This document shows, piece after piece, positions 15,425 to 27,377 of a stretch of 41,370 nucleotides of DNA (the first letter of the stretch is position 1; each line of letters opens with the position of its first letter). The DNA is from Acidobacteriota bacterium (GTDB lineage: Bacteria; Acidobacteriota; Terriglobia; Acidiferrales; UBA7541). The DNA lies in the NCBI GenBank assembly GCA_003167215.1, contig PMTV01000030.1:1-41370 (forward strand), written 5' to 3'. The position numbers and the translations under genes are program-made. The notes beneath the pieces are model-generated. The model did no database searches, had not been told where the DNA came from, and saw only the letters and a program-made list of their open reading frames with translations.

Positions 15425-15436
15425 CGCGACGCTTGC

Positions 15437-15451
15437 CACACCAACGGTGTG
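15437..15451. terminator. Small hairpin between two convergent genes
   Basis: CACACC (15437-15442) and GGTGTG (15446-15451) pair perfectly around AAC, just after the stop of the YeiH-type gene. There is no U-run, so only a weak or factor-assisted terminator is possible. Confidence 0.25.
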
Positions 15452-15514
15452 ATGTGTGGATGCGATAGAATTTTCTTTATCGGCTATCCGTTCTTCCCGC
15501 TCAAGCGAAATCAG

Positions 15515-15733
15515 CTAACTCTTCTTTTCCTTCTGCTGTTTGCTATACATCGCGGATTGTTCGTTGGCTTCCTGCGAGTACTGCCAGGCTTTTGCGGCGT
15601 GTTCCATGGCCTGTCTGGAGTGCTCGTGTCCGGAAAGGTGCTCCCCTTTGCCGTGTTGCGCTGCCGCAGCTCGGTGCGCATGCGCGGCCATCTCGTGAAA
15701 CTCAGCTGCTCTTTGATGCGAATCATAGGTCAT
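15515..15733 (-). CDS. Small His/Ala-rich helical protein, 72 residues
   Basis: The start ATG 15733 has a GAGGGG Shine-Dalgarno about 8 bases upstream; the frame is open further to 15823 but that extension has no such support. The protein repeats short His/Ala units (HQRAAEFHEMAAHAHRAAAAQH, then HEHSRQAMEHAAKAWQYS) that would form one or two long amphipathic helices with His on one face. The C-terminus is Lys-rich (KQQKEKKS). Similar small 'HxxAAxxHxxAA' proteins occur widely in Proteobacteria and Acidobacteria, sometimes near stress genes, but no function is established. Metal binding by the His residues is possible. It diverges from the flavin reductase-like gene and converges with the YeiH-type gene. 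Confidence 0.7.
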   Translation of the reverse strand: MTYDSHQRAAEFHEMAAHAHRAAAAQHGKGEHLSGHEHSRQAMEHAAKAWQYSQEANEQSAMYSKQQKEKKS

Positions 15734-18744: not shown

Positions 18745-19809
18745 ATGCGATCGGTTGCTGGCGACGAATTTCGCGACTTACTTACTCTTGTTCGGCAGAG
18801 CGGACTATTGGCCAAGCAGCCCGCATATTACGGCCGAAAGATGCTTCTCAACCTGGTTTTGCTCGTTAGCGCTTTCCTGCTGATAAGAAGGTTTCAAAAT
18901 CCGTGGGCGGAACTTCTCAATGCCGCTTTCCTGGCTTTTGTCTTCGCTCAACTCGGTTTTATCGTTCACGATGCAGGCCATCAGGAAATTTTCAGCGCGC
19001 CCGCTGGCAATGAGGTCCTTGGCCTCATTCATTCAAATCTCTTGCTCGGTTTCAGCTACAGTTGGTGGCTCCACAAGCACCATCATCATCATTGCTCCCC
19101 AAATCACGTTACCGCCGATCCCGATGTCGATATACCTCTGTTCGCATTTACCAAGGACCAGGCAGCTACAAAGCGCGGGTTCGCGCGGCTCACGGTGAAA
19201 TACCAGCACTTCTGTTTCTTCCCTTTGTCTTTGTTCGAAGCATTTGTGCTGAAAGTTGATAGTGTTAAATTCCTATTGCGCCACAAGGTCGCGCACCCCC
19301 TCATTGAAGTGAGTTTTCTCATTCTGCACGCCTGCTGGTTTCTGGGCCTGCTCTATTTTCTTCTCGGTTGGCCACATGCCATCCTGTTCTTCGTGGCGCA
19401 ACAGATGTTCCTGGGACTGTATTTGACTCTGATATTCGCCCCTAATCATCAGGGCATGCCCCTGCTGCAAGGCGCCTCGGCGGTGAACTTTTTGCGTGAG
19501 CAAGTGCTCACCAGCCGGAACATTAAGAAGCATCCGGGAATCGATTACTGCACCGGAGGCCTCACTTGCCAGATCGAACACCACCTGTTCCCGACTATGC
19601 CTACAAACAAACTTCGACAGGTTCAAAAAATAGTTAAGTCCTACTGCATGTCGCACGGCGTTCCCTACCATGAGACTTCATTGTTCCAGTCCTATCGCGA
19701 GGTCTATCAGGATTTGCGCAAAAACAGTTTCATTGTGAGCAGACGTTCCGATGGCAACACAATCACAAATCGAACGGACCTCGATTCAAGGATCGCTCCT
19801 CGCTTCTGA
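18745..19809 (+). CDS. Fatty acid desaturase, front-end (QIEHH) type
   Basis: A 354-residue di-iron membrane desaturase. Three histidine boxes are present: HDAGH (His75-His79), HKHHHHH (from His110) and QIEHH (276-280). The Gln in place of the first His of box three is typical of front-end (delta-5/delta-6-like) desaturases and related acyl-CoA/phospholipid enzymes. Four or more hydrophobic segments surround the boxes. No cytochrome b5 domain is fused, so an external electron donor is needed. The start ATG 18745 has AAAGGGA upstream. It probably introduces double bonds into membrane lipids, for example in response to cold; the regiospecificity is not predictable. Confidence 0.92.
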   Translation: MRSVAGDEFRDLLTLVRQSGLLAKQPAYYGRKMLLNLVLLVSAFLLIRRFQNPWAELLNAAFLAFVFAQLGFIVHDAGHQEIFSAPAGNEVLGLIHSNLLLGFSYSWWLHKHHHHHCSPNHVTADPDVDIPLFAFTKDQAATKRGFARLTVKYQHFCFFPLSLFEAFVLKVDSVKFLLRHKVAHPLIEVSFLILHACWFLGLLYFLLGWPHAILFFVAQQMFLGLYLTLIFAPNHQGMPLLQGASAVNFLREQVLTSRNIKKHPGIDYCTGGLTCQIEHHLFPTMPTNKLRQVQKIVKSYCMSHGVPYHETSLFQSYREVYQDLRKNSFIVSRRSDGNTITNRTDLDSRIAPRF

Positions 19810-20029
19810 AATAGCACAAAAAGCTAACCTGTTTTTCTTGACCTGCATTTCGCGAAATGTTATTAGCCTGCCAAGCTTAAGACCCGAAGGAATTAACCAC
19901 ATCATTAGTTGCCGCGGATGTGACCCCGCCGCGCGGCTAGAGCGGTCGTCTGTGCGCGTTTTTGTGGAATTGCGCCCCGGGGTCTAAAGCTCTTGGAGAA
20001 GAGGGACTGCGGGCGGCCTAGGAGGACCA

Positions 20030-20767
20030 ATGAAAAGAGTGAGTTTGGTGCACGTCTTGGTTTTATTGGCAGTTGCGTTGTTCAGTGGTACAGCTTTCGC
20101 CCAAACTGACCCAGGTGTTCGCACTGGAGCGATTAACGGCCAGACGGGCGCCACGAAGACAAATCCGCTCCCGCCCGCTTCCGTCACCGCTGAAAGCCCG
20201 GCGGGAATCTTGGAGTTTTTCCAAGACGGTCTCACCCGCTTTCAGGAAGTCGAAGTAGTCAGCGGCGGCGCAAACAATGGTCTGGGACCGCGCTTCAACT
20301 TTAACCAATGCTCCGGCTGTCACTCGCAGCCTTCCATCGGCGGCTCAAGCCCCAGCGCCAACATATACCCCGACGTCGGTCCCAATCCCGAGAGCCAAGT
20401 GATTACCCAAGGCATTGCGAACGGCAGAGACAATACGCTTCCGTCGTTCATTACCGCCACTGGACCAAGCCGCGAAGCCCGCTTCCCGTTCTTCTTTAAC
20501 TCAAACGGCAGCGTGAATACCAATTCCCCGAATGGCGGTGTCGAAGACCTGTTCACCGTCTCCGGCCGTTCAGACGCCGGAAGCTGCAACATTCCGCAGC
20601 CCAGTTTTGCTTCCGCTCAGCAGGAGAACGACATCATCTTCCGCATTCCCACTCCGATCTTTGGAGCAGGCTTGGTTGAAAACATTGACGACTCAACCCT
20701 GCTGGCCATTCAAACGGCGAACGCCAACACGATCTTCACCTCTGTAGGTTCCTCTTTCACTTTATAG
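20030..20767 (+). pseudogene. Di-heme oxidoreductase (DHOR/DUF1111 type), 3'-truncated
   Basis: A well-formed 5' end: AGGAGG just upstream of ATG 20030 and a clear signal peptide (ending TAFAQ near residue 25). The N-terminal heme-binding motif CSGCH (Cys94-His98) sits in FNFNQCSGCHSQPSIGG, typical of di-heme 'thiol oxidoreductase'/peroxidase-like proteins. The IPTPIFGAGLVENIDDSTLL segment (about 205-225) is also conserved in this family. The homology ends at about residue 234. Eleven unrelated codons follow, then TAG at 20765, whereas the family normally has a second heme motif and some 450-600 residues. From about 20730 the DNA belongs to the facing minus-strand gene. This is therefore a remnant, most likely created by a deletion or an assembly join. 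Confidence 0.8.
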
Positions 20768-21228
20768 TCCGGCTTTAGATTGTCCTTCGTGTATTTGATC
20801 AATTCCTTTGCATTGGCGGCCGGCACCAGTGCAAAAAACAAGTCCTGAGCCGCTACCAAAATCGACCCTTTAATGGGCCCCTTCCCCGTTTCCGTGGGCC
20901 TGAGTTGAGCCAAGACGTAATAACCGGAATCGGATGGCGGCGGGCCTTTATACTTCTCGTACCAGTCGGAGGAGAGCGGATACGAAAGGCCAAAGTATTG
21001 GTTCGCATAAATGTTGTGGGCCACGCTCCCGCCTTCCGGCAGCGGAGTGGCCGAATCACTGGAACTCGACCACGCCCCCTTTACAAGAATCACTCCGGAA
21101 GGAACCTTTTGCGGCGCCGGGCTCTGCGCATGAGGCGTAACCCCCGGCGAATTCGGAGCCTCGGACTGTGCCGACAGCGATGGGGATAAGCCAATAAGAA
21201 GTACAAGACTAAAGAATTTTGAATTCAA
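20710..21228 (-). pseudogene. Conserved acidobacterial exported protein, 3'-truncated
   Basis: The proposed start is TTG 21228, preceded by a strong GGAGGG at 5 bases and followed by a signal peptide (MNSKFFSLVLLIGLSPSLSAQ). The upstream extension to 21480 lacks these features. The body (for example HNIYANQYFGLSYPLSSDWY and PPPSDSGYYVLAQLRP) matches an acidobacterial exported family that I recall only as uncharacterised. In relatives the TEVKI segment is followed by another 50-70 residues. Here it is followed by VLAFAV and a stop that lie in the facing di-heme gene. The last codons from about 20733 down to 20710 are antisense to that gene. The protein is therefore probably truncated, though it may still be expressed. 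Function unknown. Confidence 0.65.
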
Positions 21229-21339
21229 CAGCTCCCTCCGTCGAAGAGAACCAAGAACCGCTGCTATCTTATCAAGAAGTACAGCCGCAAAAGTACCCTT
21301 GCTCAAAAAACAAACGGATATTTTCGCCCGACGGTTATT

Positions 21340-21376
21340 CCGGCAGGTGTTTTGCCCGCCTCCTGCCGGCCGGCAG
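21340..21376. repeat. Nested palindromes upstream of the GT39-like gene
   Basis: CTGCCGGCCGGCAG (21363-21376) is a perfect 14-base palindrome. Its left half also pairs with CCGGCAGG (21340-21347) across a 14-base loop. The element sits in the divergent gap between the truncated exported-protein gene and the GT39-like gene. It resembles the short GC-rich palindromes that recur between genes in many soil bacteria; the copy number cannot be judged here. Confidence 0.45.
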
Positions 21377-26452: not shown

Positions 26453-26484
26453 TTGCCCGTCACGAAGTTCGAACTTGTAAGGGG

Positions 26485-26527
26485 GCCGGGGCAGGCGGTG
26501 TCGAGCGTGGGTGTCACCTGCCCCGGC
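26485..26527. terminator. Strong hairpin between convergent genes
   Basis: GCCGGGGCAGG (26485-26495) and CCTGCCCCGGC (26517-26527) form a perfect 11-base stem around a 21-base loop. They lie between the stops of the deacetylase (+) and the LVIVD gene (-), and are preceded by the palindrome AAGTTCGAACTT. There is no U-run, so termination is inferred from position and stem strength; a repetitive element is the alternative. Confidence 0.5.
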
Positions 26528-26553
26528 ATCTGAAGGAGTAAAGGAAGACAACA

Positions 26554-27159
26554 TTAGCCGCCGTAGGAGCCCAGAGCTTCGGCCTTCTGCGGCTGTTTTG
26601 CTTGCATCACCCACAGTCCTTCGCCGTTCGACAAATAAATCAGACCGCGGGCATCATCGGCCACAACGCTCGTAACGTCGGCGAACGTCTGCATCTGTTG
26701 TGGATTCGCCGGGTCACTCATGTTCAGAATTGTCACCGAGCGGGGCCGCGCATTAGACGAGCTTGCCGTTGCTTCTCCGATGCGAGAAGTCACCGCCAGT
26801 GTGTCGCCAACAAGTTGGAAGTCCGCCGCTTGCGCGCCGCCTGCTCCTGCAATCTTTTCGACCTTGCGCGGGTCCGCCGGTTTTGCAACGTCAAATATGC
26901 AAACGCCTGATGACGAGCTGAGCCCAACGTAGAGATATTGCTTTCCGTCCTTCTGCACCAAAAGCATCCGGGTCGCCGTTCCACCGTCGAGCTGTAAGTG
27001 CGCGATCACGCCCAAATTCGAGACAACATCCTTCTTCGCCTTCGGCTTGGCAAAGATGGATGGCGCCGCAGCAATTCCGATCGCAAGAAACACCACCACT
27101 GCTCGCGACACTGACTTAATAACCCTACCGTGTGTTTTGTCCTGCAAGCTGCCTTTCAT
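26554..27159 (-). CDS. Exported LVIVD-repeat protein, 201 residues
   Basis: The start ATG 27159 has a perfect AGGAGG 8 bases upstream. A hydrophobic signal segment follows (VVVFLAIGIAAAPSIFA). The body contains propeller-like repeats with the pattern '(L/V)YVG...GVCIFDVAKPADPRKV' and 'SVTILNMSDPANPQQM', the LVIVD signature of bacterial surface proteins. With about three repeats it is short for a full propeller, and may oligomerise or be an incomplete blade set. No enzyme motif is visible. It diverges from the GNAT gene. Confidence 0.78.
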   Translation of the reverse strand: MKGSLQDKTHGRVIKSVSRAVVVFLAIGIAAAPSIFAKPKAKKDVVSNLGVIAHLQLDGGTATRMLLVQKDGKQYLYVGLSSSSGVCIFDVAKPADPRKVEKIAGAGGAQAADFQLVGDTLAVTSRIGEATASSSNARPRSVTILNMSDPANPQQMQTFADVTSVVADDARGLIYLSNGEGLWVMQAKQPQKAEALGSYGG

Positions 27160-27377
27160 TGGTCAATCCTCCTGACTGCTCGTGCGATTTTTGATTGCTC
27201 TCGGCAGTCACTTATCCAGACACACGAAGGACCGAAAATATTCCCGAAGATTTGCCTCATCGCAGCAATACATTACGCGAGGGCGACCGCGCTCGCCGTT
27301 CCTACCGCCGGTTTATCCCGACGACGGAAGGGCTTCCTAACTTTGACCTTGCGCCCGGAGAACAATAGACTCATCCA

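Follow-up and report, generated by a model that had tools for sequence, protein, structure and literature searches.

The two convergent short genes at positions 20,030 to 21,228 of the window (by which we mean the whole 41,370-nucleotide stretch of Acidobacteriota DNA analyzed here) are best explained by one deletion event that took 1,393 bp out of the chromosome, very probably in the lineage leading to the window and later than its divergence from palsa_348. The surrounding genome, a soil Acidobacteria assembly derived from a metagenome, is 95.7% complete in 68 contigs, and the window is its contig C23. Our reference sister species, palsa_348 (G019; PLZZ01000243.1), belongs to the same genus and is about 95% identical to the window. 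From the convergent pair the deletion would have taken away the two inner halves, along with the hairpin terminator between the genes, and the outcome would be two pseudogene stubs, with the final codons of each antisense to the other. The features concerned, in window coordinates, are these:

19773-21361, no strand: segment with both stubs, absent from the related genome G015, which has an empty site here (window 19772/21362 corresponds to 13950/14046 of G015 contig C238)
19838-19866, plus strand: promoter-like TTGACC-17-TATTAG upstream of the di-heme oxidoreductase (DHOR) gene, assigned by eye rather than by a promoter-scan score
20020-20026, plus strand: Shine-Dalgarno-like AGGAGGA before the DHOR ATG
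20030-20729, plus strand: 5' stub of the DHOR gene (PF06537), with signal peptide, first heme motif and 233 native codons plus 1 base; the full-length G019 orthologue aligns up to 20729
20309-20323, plus strand: first heme motif CSGCH (residues 94-98), the sole one left in a motif scan
20710-20729, minus strand: six out-of-context codons (VLAFAV) and the stop of the minus-strand ORF, antisense to the DHOR stub (ORF list)
20729-20730, no strand: deletion junction, with 1,393 bp at this point in G019 (C8:11232-12624), no microhomology and no insertion
20730-20767, plus strand: twelve out-of-context codons and the stop of the plus-strand ORF, antisense to the facing gene (ORF list, G019 alignment)
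20730-21228, minus strand: 5' stub of the gene for an exported, periplasmic PsbP-like/TonB_C protein (the partner), with a likely TTG start at 21228 and 166 native codons; its C-terminal half and TonB_C are gone

The window and G019 are collinear over about 25 kb, with identity mostly 92-97%, and their alignment is gap-free on either side of 20729/20730, where zero window bases face 1,393 bp in G019. That segment holds the C-terminal half of DHOR, including the second heme motif, the hairpin terminator, and the C-terminal half of the partner gene with TonB_C. The missing sequence is likewise present in outgroups, and it is the window that lost DNA, because the outgroup relatives have full-length genes. 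In the window, the 3' ends of the plus-strand ORF (20030-20767) and the minus-strand ORF (21480-20710) run across each other, sharing positions 20710-20767. An earlier note, made from these letters alone, had placed both truncations within 20725-20735, a zone that indeed contains the exact junction, and had explained them in one step by a deletion between convergent genes; G019, in which the pair is intact with the 1,393 bp extra, displays exactly that arrangement for the immediate ancestor. The ORF list and the G019 alignment together bear out its reading that the last codons of each gene are antisense to the other. It had allowed that family members might naturally end at these residues, but the proteins of the relatives are longer, so these are true truncations rather than natural ends. 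It had proposed comparing the junction for microhomology, and none is present: the deletion ends share 0 bp when compared with G019, although the breakpoints are set against a 95%-identical sister, in which substitutions could mask 1-2 bp of microhomology. No direct or inverted repeats of at least 7 bp lie within 60 bp of both ends.

The plus-strand ORF encodes 245 amino acids, of which the last 12 are antisense, ending in QTANAN followed by TIFTSVGSSFTL and a stop; the truncation, previously put after about residue 234, falls after 233 native codons plus one base. Full-length DHOR proteins in relatives have 442-535 amino acids and two CxxCH motifs, the second about 270 residues after the first. 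One such motif is found in the stub, versus two in all nine full-length relatives. DHOR enzymes need two hemes. Against PF06537 the stub aligns to profile positions ~183-239 (E-value 6.8e-5) and at 21.9 bits falls just under the 22-bit cut-off because it is truncated; the C-terminal half of the G019 protein scores 100.2 bits. By its sequence, the stub is what remains of a DHOR gene and no working member of the family. A full-length DHOR paralogue (a 513 amino acid frame, 54% identical) is present on contig C9 of the same genome. No solved structure was found for DHOR by sequence search. An apparent frameshift in the G019 DHOR gene proved to be a 2-N assembly gap and is therefore no evidence of parallel decay in that genome.

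On the minus strand, the native sequence ends EEPTEVKI, the point after which the C-terminus had been reported lost, and continues as VLAFAV and a stop, read from the antisense of DHOR. The G019 partner orthologue has 334 amino acids, with TonB_C (PF03544) at residues 267-319 (27.1 bits versus a 24.6-bit cut-off), and complete partners in relatives have about 314-349. The window stub matches zero Pfam families, and for the N-terminal part of the partner no Pfam or NCBIfam model was matched. A structure model of the partner (33 input sequences; pLDDT 77 on average and >90 in the core) places a TonB C-terminal domain after a PsbP/Mog1-like sheet; Foldseek searches with this model returned PsbP, CyanoP, DcrB and TonB C-terminal domains, and a sequence search of solved structures gave weak matches to TonB C-terminal domains. 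In the predicted structure the cut at residue 166 coincides with the end of the central strand (156-166), and the truncation would remove three further strands, one helix and the whole TonB domain. No other full partner gene is present in the window's genome. A genome of another genus, G046, also carries a shortened partner gene (C425, L053:1817-2425, minus strand), which is missing about 95 codons after TPVSL; its break lies no more than about two codons from the position of the partner break in the window. At the join lies a copy, 68 bp long and 95.6% identical, of the second heme motif of the adjacent DHOR gene, for which either templated repair or an assembly error could account.

That a misjoined contig would look the same had been pointed out in the earlier note. 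Where unrelated contigs are concerned, synteny contradicts this: they were not joined here, because the gene order on both sides is the same in G019 (over ~25 kb) and in G015 (the desaturase and glycosyltransferase flanks). A collapse within the locus, which reads alone can exclude, is judged from the sequence to be unlikely, because the ends share no overlap for an assembler to use. We also weighed the broader possibility that the 1,393 bp were left out, and the flanks joined, by the assembler or through a chimeric read, and that the living genome keeps both genes complete. The genome is metagenome-derived and in 68 contigs, the junction is seen in one assembly only (all loci with its 22-mer belong to the window's own genome, and no other genome has it), and related assemblies have gaps or breaks near the pair, with N-runs in G019 and a contig end within the gene in G025. 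Against this, no sequence is common to both ends, the window contains no N bases, and the 1,393 bp segment is absent elsewhere in the window's genome. A graph assembler requires real junction k-mers for such a join. We consider an artefact quite unlikely. A search of the rest of the genome for misbinned or misjoined copies of the missing halves gave matches to the C9 paralogue alone, short ones at 71-83%.

A deletion that is real but confined to a fraction of the cells sampled is very unlikely: a metagenome consensus can select one among several variants, but no contig with an intact variant was binned in the genome. That the short form is ancestral, with G019 and the other relatives having gained the C-terminal halves, is vanishingly improbable, given that almost all of 49 loci, mostly from Acidobacteriota, have the genes at full length, and that the stubs terminate in each other's antisense codons.

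To place the pair in a wider setting, we scanned species genomes and recovered 49 loci with the partner gene (L074-L122). DHOR lies directly upstream of the partner on the same strand in 46 of these, usually with a gap of 65-430 bp; the remaining three comprise one locus without DHOR in the DNA examined, one divergent locus, and the convergent locus of G019. The divergent locus (L111, Terriglobia bacterium S3) has three tandem DHOR genes opposite in orientation to the partner. Because co-directional loci predominate to this degree, the convergent layout of the window and G019 is derived; the earlier description of the genes as originally convergent holds for the immediate ancestor, as seen in G019, and fails further back. 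In G019, the DHOR stop is directly followed by a hairpin of 12 base pairs and a T run, and a hairpin likewise follows the stop in all four co-directional relatives that were folded (z-scores -1.1 to -3.6). A survey of 20 genomes of the genus found the full partner only in G013, G015 and G019, and the stub in the window. Within the literature searched, no paper on DHOR/TonB pairing in Acidobacteria was found, and the two genes apparently form a conserved, undescribed pair.

The locus itself was probably acquired as an insertion, because the closer relative G015 is empty between the same flanking genes: its desaturase and glycosyltransferase genes (88% and 86% identical) are neighbors, and 95 bp (C238:13951-14045) replaces window 19773-21361. 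G015 has a co-directional pair of its own on another contig, with no more than 52-61% identity to that of the window, and the partner-gene tree sets the window and G019 apart from G015 on a separate long branch (100/100). We infer a gain in the ancestor of the window and G019 rather than a loss in G015. That common ancestor would have gained a divergent, flipped pair between the desaturase and glycosyltransferase genes, and the window lineage would subsequently have lost it; arrival in flipped orientation followed by loss is the probable order of events on the sequence evidence. The desaturase C-terminus at window 19757-19809 (ITNRTDLDSRIAPRF) differs from, and outruns, the VTNRRDI of G015, probably because the insertion replaced the last codons of the gene. 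No transposase or integrase ORF was recognized within 19773-21361. The window's flanking genes do not represent the pair's ancestral neighborhood, as none of nine flanking proteins occurs near the pair in 50 other loci.

The loss looks recent relative to the species split, because both stub reading frames are intact up to the junction, changes on the two branches are about equal, and dN/dS values for the stubs are low. No additional disabling mutations were found in either frame. Outgroup-polarized amino acid changes in DHOR number six on the window branch and five on the G019 branch, with four ambiguous, and dN/dS between window and G019 is 0.20 for the DHOR stub and 0.09 for the partner stub, the range for ten other genes being 0.04-0.13. 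No value in the set exceeds that of the DHOR stub, but this is a fast-evolving part of the gene and the value is weak evidence for decay. Relaxed selection was rejected as a clock, since the window branch has no excess of changes and dN/dS is below 1, allowing only the word 'recent'. The earlier claim of a recent loss of a heme redox protein thus stands as to its timing; the paralogous DHOR on C9 persists, so not all DHOR activity need be lost.

G019 contig C8 is also about 1.9-2.2 kb longer than the window at 15427-15546 and 26456-27341. We considered whether such length differences mark the window's genome as deletion-prone, and rejected this: for the difference near 17.1 kb, the G015 alignment runs through the window sequence unbroken, a sign that G019 gained an insertion there.

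How the ends were joined can be suggested from the gene content. The window's genome has two Ku genes and an ATP-dependent ligase ORF of 912 amino acids about 1.4 kb from one of them. A double-strand break whose ends were rejoined by Ku/LigD-type end joining would be the likeliest route, because the deletion ends show no homology and Ku and LigD-like proteins are encoded; the presence of these genes makes the route possible only.

Both stubs are almost surely non-functional. No functional product would be expected, because DHOR has lost heme 2, and the partner breaks off within its PsbP-like sheet, short of the TonB domain; transcripts from both promoters would collide. The event is ordinary pseudogenization, and a single deletion between two genes is a routine way of losing them. 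Its consequence for annotation is that two pseudogene stubs should replace two short genes, and the conserved pairing of DHOR with PsbP/TonB_C is the only part that a specialist might follow up. A more far-reaching proposal, which we regard as rather unlikely, is that the pair forms an uncharacterized Acidobacteriota module of a heme enzyme and an energy-transduction-like partner, mobile between genomes and lost again, with a fragile site near codon 166 of the partner broken independently in the window and G046.

Among known systems, the plus-strand gene belongs with the DHOR family (PF06537, di-haem oxidoreductase, putative peroxidase), whose C-terminal half is matched by the orthologues and the C9 paralogue (E-values 1e-26 to 1e-35); unlike these, the window copy retains only the first heme. 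The partner compares with proteins that join a PsbP/Mog1-like fold to a TonB C-terminal domain (PF03544); the G019 orthologue has TonB_C and the model of the partner predicts the fold, whereas the stub is without the last sheet strands and TonB_C. The junction resembles the illegitimate, blunt-ended deletions of bacterial NHEJ by Ku and LigD, a pathway that PMC5124664 describes, in that unrelated ends are joined without homology in a genome with Ku and LigD-like genes; it differs in that the pathway is here a presumed one.
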